Shown here: piece after piece, positions 8,385 through 56,654 of the stretch
How positions within the stretch are numbered: the stretch's first letter is position 1
Layout: every line of letters starts with the position of its first letter
Source of the DNA: Salinisphaera sp.
GTDB lineage: Bacteria; Pseudomonadota; Gammaproteobacteria; Nevskiales; Salinisphaeraceae
NCBI RefSeq assembly: GCF_002729955.1
Contig: NZ_PBYA01000026.1
Span: 1-64,000 of the forward strand
Length of the DNA: 64,000 bases
Direction of reading: 5' to 3'
The notes under the pieces: model-generated
Seen by the model: the letters and a program-made list of their open reading frames with translations, nothing else
Told to the model about the DNA's origin: nothing
Database searches by the model: none
Made by a program: the position numbers and the translations under genes

Positions 8385-8440
8385 CCGTCATGAAAACGCC
8401 CCGGTGTGGTCATGGAGATGTCACAGCCAACGCCTAGCGT
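8385..8440 (+). promoter_or_regulatory. Candidate Pho box and -10 of phoX
   Basis: Two half sites resembling the PhoB consensus CTGTCAT occur at 11-bp pitch: TGGTCAT (8407-8413) and ATGTCAC (8418-8424), 10 of 14 positions matching. A further CCGTCAT at 8385-8391 is 22 bp upstream, in the same helical phase. Exactly 10 nt after the box lies TAGCGT (8435-8440), the position of the -10 in the E. coli phoA and pstS promoters. The predicted leader to the phoX ATG would be about 190 nt, which is long. Confidence 0.6.
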
Positions 8441-51568: not shown

Positions 51569-52530
51569 TGACACGCTGCGAAGATCTGTTCATTGCCAGT
51601 TCCGAGGCGCCCGACGAGCGTATCCATCTGCGCGAAAAGCGGGCGGATGCGCCCGCCAGCGATGCCCCGGCCAAGGCCGTGCTGTTCGTGCACGGTGCGA
51701 CCTATCCTGGGGTGATGTTCGACGTGCCTACCAGCAGCTGGCTCGAGCATGCCGTAGCCGACGGCTATAGCGCCTATGCGCTGGACGTACGCGGCTACGG
51801 CGCCTCCACCCGCAGCCCGGTGCTGGATGCACCCGCCCAGGACAATCCGCCGTTTGCACGGGCAGAAAGCGCGGTGGCCGATATTGCCGATGCCATCGCC
51901 ACCATTCGCGAGCGCACCGGCCTGGAGACCGTGGACCTGGTGGGCTGGTCATGGGGCACGATGACCACCGGCATGTATGCCGCCAGCCGCCCGGGCACCA
52001 TCAACCGACTCGTGTTGTTCGCCCCCGTCTACAGCTGCGAGCGGCTTGATCGCATCAACGCCCTGGAGGATCGCGACAACCCCCACCGCCTTCGCCCGCT
52101 GGGCGCCTACCGCACGGAAAACATCGAGCAGGCCCGCGAACGCTGGGATGCGGAAATCACCGTCGAGGATCCGGACAGTTGGCGTGACCCGGCGATTCTC
52201 GATCGCTGGTACGAGCAGATGCTGCGCGACGAACCGGCCGATTATGTACGCGCGCCCAACGGCGTTCTCGTGGACCTGTGGGAAGCCTTCAACGGCCGCG
52301 CCCGCTATGAAGCCGGCGATATCGACGTGCCCACGCTGGTGATTCGGGCCAGCCAGGACGCCACCGCGATTCGCGAAGATGGGCTGGGCCTCTACGACCG
52401 GCTGGGCAGCGCCTACAAGCAGTACGACGAAATCGGCCGCGGCACCCATTTTTTGTTGCTGGAGCGTCGTGCGCCCCAGCTGTTCGATCGTGTGAGCGCG
52501 TTTCTGGCCAGCCCGCTGGCCACGGACTGA
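51568..52530 (+). CDS. Alpha/beta hydrolase
   Basis: A 320-residue hydrolase. The oxyanion region is VLFVHGATYPGV, the nucleophile serine is in GWSWGTMTTG (about 130), the acid is likely in IRASQDATA and the histidine in GRGTHFLLLE. The DVRGYGASTR segment is typical of esterase-like enzymes. Substrate is unknown. Translationally coupled to the YihY-type gene; a terminal in the same unit. Confidence 0.87.
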   Translation: MTRCEDLFIASSEAPDERIHLREKRADAPASDAPAKAVLFVHGATYPGVMFDVPTSSWLEHAVADGYSAYALDVRGYGASTRSPVLDAPAQDNPPFARAESAVADIADAIATIRERTGLETVDLVGWSWGTMTTGMYAASRPGTINRLVLFAPVYSCERLDRINALEDRDNPHRLRPLGAYRTENIEQARERWDAEITVEDPDSWRDPAILDRWYEQMLRDEPADYVRAPNGVLVDLWEAFNGRARYEAGDIDVPTLVIRASQDATAIREDGLGLYDRLGSAYKQYDEIGRGTHFLLLERRAPQLFDRVSAFLASPLATD

Positions 52531-52569
52531 CCCGGGCCTGTCGCTAGCGCCCGAAGACGTGCCGCTTGC

Positions 52570-53835
52570 CTAGCCGAACACGGCACGCAGGATGAAATAG
52601 AACACCGCGGTGAACAGCGCCGCGCCGGGCAGGGTGAGCAGCCAGCCAAGGAATACGCGGCCGAGGACGCTCAGGTCCAGCGCGCGAATGCCGCGGGCCA
52701 GGCCCACGCCGAGCACGCCACCGACCAGGGTCTGGGTGGTGGATACCGGAATACCGAACCAGGTGGCCAGCACGACCGTGGTGGCCGCGGCAAGCTCCGC
52801 CGAAAACCCGCGGGTGGGGGTGAGCGAGGTGATCTTGGCGCCAATGGTGCGAATTACGCGGTGGCCGTAGGTCGCCAGCCCGAACACGATGCCCACGCCG
52901 CCGAGCACCAGCACCCAGCTGGCCAGCTCCGATTCGCCGCCGATCTGGCCCGGATTGTTCAGCACGTTGATGATGGCCGCGACCGGGCCGACAGCATTGG
53001 CCACGTCGTTGGAGCCGTGCGCGAACGCCATGGTGGCGGCCGTGAACACCTGGGCGAAGCCGAACACCCGCTCCACGTTGCGATAACGATCAGAGCGCTG
53101 GTGCGTGTCGAGCAGCTGTACGCGGTTGAGCAACAGCCGGCTGATTACCGCCGCACCGATGCCCAGCACCACCGCGCCGAGAATGCTCATCGGCGTCGAC
53201 AGTTCCAGGCCCACATGGCTCAAGCCCTTCACCAGCGTGACCAGACAGATCACGAAGCCGGCCAGAAACACATAGAACGGGATATAGCGGCGCGCGCCCT
53301 CGGCCGGGTTGTCGTGGTTGAGTACCAGCCGGCGTATCGACTCGAACAGCAGGAAGGCCAGCGTGCCGGCGATGATCGGCGAGGCGATCCAGCTGGCCAC
53401 GATTTTGCCGATTTCTGCCCAGTTCACCGGCTCCGTACCCACCGAGACCAGGGCGAAGCCGAGAATACCGCCCACGATCGACTGACCGGTGGATACCGGC
53501 ATGCCCAGGGTGGATGTCAGCAGCAGGAAACAGCCCGCACCGAGCAGCGCCGCGAGCATGCCGTAGACCAGTAGTTGCGGCGTATCGGCGAATACCTCCG
53601 GCCGGATCAGCCCGCCGCTGATGGTCTGGGTGACTTCGCCACCCGCCAGCCACGCGCCTAAAAACTCGAAGATGCCGGCAATGATCACCGCCTGGGTGAT
53701 GGTGATCGCCCCCGAGCCGACCGACGTGCCCATGGCATTGGCCACATCGTTCGCGCCGATGCCCCACGCCATGAAGAAACCGAAAACGCACGCCAGAATC
53801 AGGAATAATTCGGCGTTCTGGGCGATGATCGACAT
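52570..53835 (-). CDS. pit: PiT-family low-affinity inorganic phosphate transporter
   Basis: A 421-residue membrane protein with about ten to twelve helices and the duplicated PiT motif: GANDVANAMGTSVG in the first half and HGSNDVANAVGPVAAI in the second. ATG 53835 has AAGGA upstream. It imports phosphate (or metal-phosphate) with protons. DUF47 precedes it by 39 bases, the usual PiT-accessory pairing, and a Pho box precedes DUF47. Confidence 0.93.
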   Translation of the reverse strand: MSIIAQNAELFLILACVFGFFMAWGIGANDVANAMGTSVGSGAITITQAVIIAGIFEFLGAWLAGGEVTQTISGGLIRPEVFADTPQLLVYGMLAALLGAGCFLLLTSTLGMPVSTGQSIVGGILGFALVSVGTEPVNWAEIGKIVASWIASPIIAGTLAFLLFESIRRLVLNHDNPAEGARRYIPFYVFLAGFVICLVTLVKGLSHVGLELSTPMSILGAVVLGIGAAVISRLLLNRVQLLDTHQRSDRYRNVERVFGFAQVFTAATMAFAHGSNDVANAVGPVAAIINVLNNPGQIGGESELASWVLVLGGVGIVFGLATYGHRVIRTIGAKITSLTPTRGFSAELAAATTVVLATWFGIPVSTTQTLVGGVLGVGLARGIRALDLSVLGRVFLGWLLTLPGAALFTAVFYFILRAVFG

Positions 53836-53874
53836 CAGGCGATCCTTGTAACGAGGGCGTGGGCCCGAAAGTGT

Positions 53875-54561
53875 TTAGCGGGTGGCAAGAATCTGCAGGC
53901 GCGAGCCGGCGCGCTCGGCGCGATCCGCCACCGAGCCGATCGCATCGATCACCCGGTAGATGAACATCATCTCCAACGGCGGCAGTTCGCTTTCCAGCGG
54001 CAGCAGCTGGCGACGGATGGCCACCTGCTGCTCGTCCGAGGTGTTTTCCAGCCGGCCCAGCTCGGCGACCATGTCGGCGATGAGCTCGCCCACGCTGCGC
54101 CCGAAGCCCGAGTCCAGCAGTTCGCCCAGTTCCTCGAGCACCTTGCGCGCCTGCGCCACGCTGGCATGCGTGGTTTCCAGATAGGCCCGAATGGGCGCCT
54201 GAAGCGCATCCGGGAACTGCATGCGCCGACCCGTCATCAGGCCGGATATATCCTTGATCTTGTTGACGATCTTGTCCTGCGCTTCGACCAGCACCAGCAG
54301 GTCGGCGCGCGAGATCGGCATGAACAGCGTGCTCGGCAGGTTGAGCCGGATACGATCCTTGAGATCGTCGGCCTCGTGCTCGCAGTCGTTGATCTGCTGA
54401 TGCAGCGCCTCGGCCGCGTCCCAGTCTCCGGCCTGGCTCCGCTCGATGAATTCCATCAGCAGCGATGAGCCTTTTTCCACCTGGCGCATATGCTCGGTCA
54501 GCGCCCCGAACGGCGACTTGCCGAACAGGCTGGGAAACGGGCTGTTCTTGGTGGGATCCAT
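53875..54561 (-). CDS. DUF47 (PhoU-like) PiT accessory protein
   Basis: A 228-residue helical protein of the TIGR00153/DUF47 class. Blocks: HEADDLKDRIRLNLPSTLFMPISRADL, LVEAQDKIVNKIKDI and a C-terminal MMFIYRVIDAIGSVADRAERAGSRL. Related to PhoU, it is the standard cytosolic partner of PiT transporters and probably regulates uptake. ATG 54561 follows GGAG. First gene of a two-gene operon with pit. Confidence 0.92.
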   Translation of the reverse strand: MDPTKNSPFPSLFGKSPFGALTEHMRQVEKGSSLLMEFIERSQAGDWDAAEALHQQINDCEHEADDLKDRIRLNLPSTLFMPISRADLLVLVEAQDKIVNKIKDISGLMTGRRMQFPDALQAPIRAYLETTHASVAQARKVLEELGELLDSGFGRSVGELIADMVAELGRLENTSDEQQVAIRRQLLPLESELPPLEMMFIYRVIDAIGSVADRAERAGSRLQILATR

Positions 54562-54587
54562 ACGGGCTCCGGATGCGGCGACGGTTC

Positions 54588-54621
54588 ATGCTCGGCGCAC
54601 AGTATGTCAGTCGTAAGACAG
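54588..54621 (-). promoter_or_regulatory. Candidate Pho box and -10 of DUF47-pit
   Basis: On the minus strand CTGTCTT (54621-54615), ACGA spacer and CTGACAT (54610-54604) match the PhoB pair CTGTCAT-N4-CTGTCAT at 12 of 14 positions with 11-bp pitch. Ten bases further is GAGCAT (54593-54588), at the -10 distance of E. coli pho promoters. The DUF47 ATG is 43 bases beyond the box. Confidence 0.7.
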
Positions 54622-54773
54622 GCGCCGGTGACCTGCGTCATCATCGTCGCGCCACGAGCGCTTGCGGCGACCGGCCCCGCGACGTCCTGAGGCCTTATGT
54701 CCTGCGCTTTATAACGTCGTAGCGCGGAACGTTTGCGCTGATATATGTCCGATATCCTTCCACGACTTTGCAG

Positions 54774-56654
54774 ATGAACTCGTACCCGATGCTCAACCCC
54801 GTTCCATCCGGCGCCGGGCGCGGCGCGCTATTGCGCTGGCTCGGCTGGCTCATGATTGCCTATACCCTCGTGCTGTCGCTGGTGGCCCTGCGCTATCTCG
54901 ATGTGGGTGATCTGGCCAGCGGCGGGGTGGCCCGCAGCTTCGGCGTGGCGATGTTCTTTGCACATTTCCTGTCGGTCGCGCTCATCGGCCTGTTGCCGGT
55001 CATGCTGCTCGCCCTGCTGTTGCCCTATCGGCACCTCATCGTGCCGCTGGCCTGGGCGGTGGGGGTGGTGCTCACCTGCCTGCTGCTGGTGGATACGCTG
55101 GTATTCCAGCAATACCGGTTTCATCTGAACGGCGCGCTGGTGTCGCTGTTCTTCTCCGGCGCCTCGGAAGAAACCTTTGAATTCTCGCTGGCGATGAAGA
55201 TCCAGGTCGCCCTCATCGGCCTGGGCGTGGCCGTCGCGCTCTGGGGCGTGGGCTGGGCGGTATGGCGGCTGGTCGCGGCCACCCGCGAGCGCCGCTTCGG
55301 CTACGGCGTGGCCACGGCATGCGTGGCACTGCTGCTGGCCACCAACCTGTTTCATGCCTATGCCGATGCCATGGGCGACGGCAACGTGACGCGCCAGACG
55401 CGCCTGCTGCCAGGCTACGAGCCGCTCACCGCCAAGGATTTTCTCGAAGAACGCGGCTTCGACGTGGCCGAGGCCAGCTGGGGCGGCGATACCGCCCTCG
55501 ATGGCTCCATCGACTACCCGCGGGTGCCGCTGCAAACCACCAAGCCGGGCCAGCCGAAGAACATCGTGTTCATCGTCATCGACTCCTGGCGTTTCGATGC
55601 CATGAACGAACAGGTATCGCCGCATATGGCGCGTTTCGCGGCGAACAATCAGCGCTTCATGAACCACTACAGCGGCGGCAACGCCACGCGTATTGGCATG
55701 TTCACGCTCTTCTACGGCATTCCCGGCACCTACTGGCACAGCATGCTGCAAACGAACACCCGGCCGGTGCTGGTCAGCCGTATGCTCGATCTGGGCTACG
55801 ACTTCGGCATCTTTCGCAGCGCGCCGCTGTCCTCGCCCGAATTTCATCGCACCATCTTCTCCGGCATGAAGCAGCTGCGTATGGAATCCGAAGGCAACGA
55901 CTCGCCCACGCGGGATATCGACGCCAACCGCGACTTCATCGACTACCTGCAAAAACGCGATCCGAACGCCGAACAACCCTTCTTCGGCATGGTGTTCTAC
56001 GACTCGCCGCACGCCTACGATCTGCCGGACGACGCCCCGCGCCCGTTCCAGCCCAGCTGGGACAGCGTCAACTACCTATCGCTGGATGAAGACACCGACC
56101 CCACCGGCCTGCACAACTTGTATCGCAACTCCGTGCACTTCGTGGACGGCCTCGTCGGCAAAACGCTGGATACGCTGGAAGCGAAGGGCCTGATGGACGA
56201 CACCATCGTCGTCATCACCGGCGATCACGGCCAGGAGTTCAACGACCTGGGCCTGAACTACTGGGGCCACAACGGCGACTACAGCCGCTACCAGACGCAG
56301 GTGCCGATGATCGTGCACTGGCCCGGCCGCACCGAGCCCGGCACCCGGACCGAATACCTGACCAGCAGCCTCGATGTCGCCCCCACGCTGCTTGAGCACG
56401 CCTTGGGCGTAACCAACGCCTACGACGCCACCAGCACCGGCCACGACCTGTTCGAACCGGCCGAGCGCCTGCCGATGATCATGGCCCAGTACCGCGGCCA
56501 TGCAGCGATGACCGAAAACGGCTTCATCGACTTCCCGGCCATCGGCCGCCCCGAAGCGCTCGACCGCGACTACCGCCCCCGCGAAGACGGCCCCTCACCG
56601 GCCGCCATTCAGGCCACGCTGGAACAGATGACCCGGTTTCGGGATACGGATTAG
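54774..56654 (+). CDS. yejM: YejM/PbgA-like inner-membrane sulfatase-fold protein
   Basis: Taken from ATG 54774 (TTG 54768 is in frame), 626 residues. About five N-terminal membrane helices precede a periplasmic sulfatase/phosphoglycerol-transferase fold. Characteristic blocks: NIVFIVIDSWRFDAM, SGGNATRIGMFTLFYGIPGTYW, VVITGDHGQEFND and WGHNGDYSRYQTQVPM. The sequence follows E. coli YejM/PbgA, which senses lipopolysaccharide and controls LpxC turnover; the hydrolytic role is doubtful in that family. It is divergent from the phosphate genes. Confidence 0.87.
   Translation: MNSYPMLNPVPSGAGRGALLRWLGWLMIAYTLVLSLVALRYLDVGDLASGGVARSFGVAMFFAHFLSVALIGLLPVMLLALLLPYRHLIVPLAWAVGVVLTCLLLVDTLVFQQYRFHLNGALVSLFFSGASEETFEFSLAMKIQVALIGLGVAVALWGVGWAVWRLVAATRERRFGYGVATACVALLLATNLFHAYADAMGDGNVTRQTRLLPGYEPLTAKDFLEERGFDVAEASWGGDTALDGSIDYPRVPLQTTKPGQPKNIVFIVIDSWRFDAMNEQVSPHMARFAANNQRFMNHYSGGNATRIGMFTLFYGIPGTYWHSMLQTNTRPVLVSRMLDLGYDFGIFRSAPLSSPEFHRTIFSGMKQLRMESEGNDSPTRDIDANRDFIDYLQKRDPNAEQPFFGMVFYDSPHAYDLPDDAPRPFQPSWDSVNYLSLDEDTDPTGLHNLYRNSVHFVDGLVGKTLDTLEAKGLMDDTIVVITGDHGQEFNDLGLNYWGHNGDYSRYQTQVPMIVHWPGRTEPGTRTEYLTSSLDVAPTLLEHALGVTNAYDATSTGHDLFEPAERLPMIMAQYRGHAAMTENGFIDFPAIGRPEALDRDYRPREDGPSPAAIQATLEQMTRFRDTD

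Follow-up and report, generated by a model that had tools for sequence, protein, structure and literature searches.

Phosphate transporters of the Pit type are usually regarded as constitutive, low-affinity systems. The E. coli importers PitA and PitB belong to the PF01384 family, as does the Salinisphaera Pit described here, and pitA and pitB are not known to have a DUF47 partner, unlike the Salinisphaera gene. It has been reported that E. coli pitB is neither bound nor regulated by PhoB (PMC10294691). In S. meliloti, the orfA-pit operon (SMc02862-SMc02861) is PhoB-regulated and repressed on Pi starvation, with a Pho box just before the start codon (PMC3131613), and transcriptomics has confirmed this repression (PMC8829014). 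The operon analyzed in the current study resembles orfA-pit in its gene order, DUF47 followed by pit, and in having a Pho box a short way before the DUF47 start codon, and differs from it in that the Salinisphaera layout predicts activation instead of repression upon starvation. The initial annotation considered PhoB control of DUF47-pit notable in itself; since such control is already known from S. meliloti, what is likely to be new is the sign predicted for it. Besides, a limited literature search returned no report of a DUF47-pit operon under PhoB with an activating layout.

Among the promoters that PhoB activates, the Pho site of E. coli ugpB, a strong PhoB ChIP-seq peak (PMC10294691), reads TTGTCAT-CTTT-CTGACAC and is followed after 10 nt by TACAAA. 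Like ugpB, phoA and pstS of E. coli and the local phoX, ppk, pstS and phoB sites, the site upstream of DUF47 consists of two 7-nt direct repeats with an 11-nt pitch and, as in canonical PhoB-activated promoters, a candidate -10, here a weak hexamer, lies ten nt downstream without a -35 element. It also shares with ugpB the CTGACA half-site, a deviation from CTGTCAT which counts as natural because PhoB-bound ugpB carries it. The site differs from the core PhoB-activated promoters in its weaker half-sites, its weaker -10 and its target, a Pit operon.

The DUF47-pit locus and its Pho box

The following features were considered in the window, that is, the whole stretch of 64,000 nt that was analyzed:

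54604..54621, minus strand: Pho box CTGTCTT-ACGA-CTGACAT, a direct repeat of two 7-nt half-sites spaced by 4 nt (sequence, pattern search, matrix)
54594..54603, minus strand: spacer from box to -10, 10 nt, ACTGTGCGCC (sequence; same length as in the Salinisphaera promoters of pstS, ppk, phoX and phoB)
54588..54593, minus strand: weak -10-like element GAGCAT, identical in the nearest species, G006 (sequence, comparison with G006, matrix)
54567..54570, minus strand: GGAG, probably the ribosome binding site of DUF47, 5 nt upstream of its start codon (sequence inspection)
53875..54561, minus strand: DUF47 / PhoU_div / TIGR00153 Pit accessory protein (PF01865; Pfam 8e-50), sole copy in the genome
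52570..53835, minus strand: Pit-type phosphate transporter (PF01384; Pfam 3e-118), sole copy in the genome
8407..8424, plus strand: phoX Pho box TGGTCAT-GGAG-ATGTCAC, comparison site (pattern search, matrix)
8435-8440, plus strand: TAGCGT, 10 nt after the phoX box (sequence)

The box was found as the initial annotation had described it, with 12 of 14 consensus positions, and its two 7-nt direct repeats near CTGTCAT, separated by 4 nt, make it the best match of the window to CTGTCAT-N4-CTGTCAT (two mismatches). The annotated -10-like element indeed lies exactly 10 nt past the box, the distance typical of the genus, but the hexamer is weak: GAGCAT agrees with TATAAT at 3/6 positions and with the TAGCGT of the local phoX and phoB promoters at 4/6, and scores 1.7 bits. 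It had also been argued that sharing both the half-site pitch and the -10 distance with phoX, whose box matches the consensus at 10/14 positions (11/14 when either C or T is accepted at the final position), makes chance less likely. The argument stands for the -10 distance; the 11-nt pitch is not independent evidence, because the motif definition includes it.

The ATG start codon of DUF47 occupies positions 54559-54561 of the minus strand, and a gap of 39 nt separates DUF47 from pit on the same strand, giving the PF01865-PF01384 arrangement of a DUF47-pit operon. An ordinary sigma-70 promoter was not found in the region 52400-54900, and megablast returned no plasmid matches to the operon.

The genome (G000) encodes a true PhoB at G000:C28:12767-13438 (TIGR02154 above cut-off), and this phoB gene has a Pho box of its own. 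In addition, ppk, named from its sequence, is preceded by a perfect 14/14 Pho box (G000:C2:85560-85577, locus L002), which is kept with the 10-nt spacing in most Salinisphaera genomes. A Pho-like box, GTGTCGT-TTGG-CTGTCAT, also occurs before a metallophosphoesterase gene (G000:C8:98909-98926, locus L006), whose product we take to resemble the lipid-remodelling enzyme PlcP. Regarding phosphate uptake in the genus, a close PstS homologue is missing in 7 of the 14 Salinisphaera genomes, yet PstB occurs in all of them, and a different binding protein may be in use in these seven. A trade-off between Pst and Pit was considered and dropped, given that PstB and PhoB are present throughout the genus, with few or no exceptions, and that pit is mostly single-copy. 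The pit gene of one metagenome-derived genome (G002; L074 6311-7575) is broken across two frames, which is a frameshift or an assembly error.

Chance matches and a promoter matrix of the genus

A functionless, weak Pho-like site could be expected in a genome of 3.8 Mb, and this explanation was weighed with genome-wide counts obtained by pattern search. At least 12 of 14 positions (no more than two mismatches) were matched at 25 sites, including some real ones, across the 3.84 Mb of the genome, and up to three mismatches gave 176 matches compared to 75 with the reversed pattern. At the rate derived from the 25 sites, about 5e-4 sites with up to two mismatches are expected on the sense strand in the 150 nt preceding any single gene picked in advance. 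Because the genome holds 25 such sites, a 12/14 match alone is weak evidence, and a model of the Pho promoter was therefore learned from the genus.

The training boxes were gathered before pstS, ppk, phoX and phoB in up to 14 genomes, and most of them had TAGCGT, TATCCG, TACCCT or a similar element exactly 10 nt downstream (pstS2 and two ppk sites were without a clear element at this distance), indicating that a TAnnnT element at 10-nt spacing is the rule in the Salinisphaera Pho regulon. The matrix, covering the box and the -10, was trained on the Salinisphaera sites of these four genes only and included no DUF47 site. Among the 127,928 positions of the window, the phoX site ranked first (28.9 bits) and the DUF47 site second (14.0 bits), the latter with a probability of 5e-6 per position under a Markov background. 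The phoB boxes of other species, which were absent from training, reached 20-31 bits and the matrix thus generalizes. When one gene family was left out, accepted ppk sites scored 8-25 bits and accepted phoX sites 11-23 bits, and the DUF47 site scored 16.2 and 14.8 bits under the matrices lacking ppk and phoX, respectively. Over all family-left-out matrices the DUF47 site obtained 11.3-16.2 bits, with accepted sites down to 8-11 bits, and this overlap with the lower accepted range places it among the weaker true sites.

Conservation of the site among Salinisphaera relatives

The initial annotation had proposed a comparison of upstream regions in related genomes, with lack of conservation speaking against the site. 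We found the site in G006 and boxes in four more genomes; at a threshold of 11 bits, 8 of the 14 DUF47-bearing genomes had no box before DUF47, and conservation is therefore present and partial. In G006, the nearest species (DUF47 96% identical), the sequence CGGTCAT-ACGA-CTGACAT, again 12/14, is followed by the same spacer and by GAGCAT, scoring 17.0 bits, above the site of the window. Box, spacer and -10 were kept between the two genomes and the DNA further upstream has diverged, the box itself having two substitutions of opposite effect. The genome G004 carries CGGTAAC-GACA-CTGTCAT before DUF47, with TATAGT at 11 nt. Moreover, in G001, G010 and G013 (loci L068, L069 and L072) an additional, diverged DUF47 copy sharing 52-54% identity with the query is inserted between the first DUF47 and pit; each of these second copies is preceded by a Pho box, and a -10 follows the box at exactly 10 nt (TAGCGT, TATCCT and TAACAT, respectively). 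Since the second copies form one clade, the boxes represent three lineages, namely G000/G006, G004 and the second-copy clade. Around the DUF47 operons of the 14 genomes (330,026 strand positions), ten sites reached at least 11 bits, six of which lie on the sense strand within 85 nt before DUF47.

The G004 operon (L066) itself has diverged, DUF47 and pit being 69% and 80% identical to 52570-54561 of the window and the flanking genes 85-92%, and in the pit tree G004 groups with G008. This low identity, together with the tree, points to a probable in-place replacement of DUF47-pit in one of the lineages.

The score of 14 bits compared to 19-36 bits for the core Pho promoters, the poor -10 and the absence of the site from most relatives count against a promoter, and the last two, along with the 25 genome-wide matches, speak in favor of chance. 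On the other hand, a fortuitous site would hardly be expected to rank second in the window under a matrix of the genus, to be retained with its -10 in G006 and to have counterparts in a matching position upstream of DUF47, three lineages being represented, and we regard chance resemblance as unlikely. The box could also serve the divergent gene for a YejM-like sulfatase/DUF3413 protein (from 54768, plus strand), which shares the intergenic region with DUF47 and is divergent in all three genomes whose first DUF47 copy is preceded by a box. This target appears highly improbable and was rejected on orientation, as the box points the wrong way and lies about 150 nt from the start of that gene; furthermore, the second-copy boxes of G001, G010 and G013 have no such neighbor, and in G008, G011 and G012, in which the gene is apart from DUF47, the search revealed no box scoring 11 bits or more.

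Overall, the site is probably a real, weak and lineage-restricted PhoB-dependent promoter of the DUF47-pit operon, as predicted from sequence. The claim that the box drives DUF47-pit thus gained support for a PhoB-dependent promoter from the matrix, G006, the four other genomes and the presence of a true PhoB, and the activation implied by 'drives' is predicted from promoter geometry.

Predicted direction of PhoB control

PhoB binding, the sign of regulation, co-transcription and a physiological benefit are predictions from sequence, and the direction toward activation is deduced solely from the geometry. A sense box that takes the position of the -35 and ends 10 nt short of a -10 is the layout of PhoB-activated promoters, which makes activation the best reading. 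At low phosphate, phosphorylated PhoB would occupy both half-sites head to tail in the direction of the DUF47 coding strand, replace the -35 element and bring sigma-70 polymerase to the -10 that lies ten nt further on, and the leader of the resulting mRNA would measure about 20 nt. Synthesis of the DUF47 protein, as an accessory or regulatory subunit, and of the Pit importer of Pi would then coincide with that of Pst, PhoX and Ppk, and Salinisphaera would probably make more Pit under phosphate shortage.

The one experimentally known case of a PhoB-controlled DUF47-pit operon, that of S. meliloti, counts against this model, as does E. coli pitB, which is no target of PhoB. PhoB could likewise repress the Salinisphaera operon as in S. 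meliloti, by blocking polymerase, stopping low-affinity import at low phosphate. Besides the fall of orfA-pit on Pi starvation with a box just before its start codon, the enrichment of antisense Pho-like boxes over the -10 before gammaproteobacterial DUF47-pit operons would favor this possibility. The Salinisphaera geometry argues against repression of the S. meliloti type: the box is in the sense orientation and precedes the -10 at the distance seen in pstS, ppk, phoX and phoB of the genus instead of covering it, and the search of 52400-54900 revealed no separate sigma-70 promoter to be blocked. We consider repression of the Salinisphaera operon rather improbable.

The enrichment came from a survey of 96 DUF47 loci across the class and the order; for 92 of them, the retrieved sequence included pit on the strand of DUF47. 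Within 150 nt upstream of DUF47, and with Markov shuffles as control, Pho-like boxes were enriched at the 4-nt spacer only: antisense boxes occurred at 12 loci compared to 0-3 at other spacers, and sense boxes showed a weak excess (8 compared to 1-6). Antisense boxes were common to five genomes of the same-order family f2 (L166-L170), and the 12 loci represent fewer independent cases because these five genomes are related. In f2 the boxes overlap a -10 of the TACTACAA/TTACAAT type a few nt before the ATG, and L194, L220 and L230 are similar; at all eight loci the distance from the antisense box to the DUF47 start is about 25-45 nt, and the box lies over or beside a -10-like TACAAT. Judged by sequence, an antisense box over the -10 is a repressor-like layout and may reflect repression, the opposite of the control predicted in Salinisphaera. 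As the -10 lies very near the ATG, the DUF47-pit mRNA may be leaderless in the five same-order genomes. Another geometry unlike that of Salinisphaera was observed at L192, L199, L200 and L228, where sense Pho-like boxes before DUF47-pit are followed by TATACT or TATAAT exactly 29 nt downstream.

With activation by PhoB as the preferred reading for Salinisphaera, it is conceivable, if still doubtful, that lineages differ in the sign of PhoB control over DUF47-pit because a single Pho box has changed its strand and position: in several gammaproteobacterial families it would repress, lying antisense over the -10, and in three Salinisphaera lineages it would activate, lying sense and 10 nt before the -10. 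If true, this would provide a simple and testable case of a regulator changing sign through a moved or turned binding site, and if PhoB does induce Pit, the phosphate starvation response of some bacteria would include this transporter.
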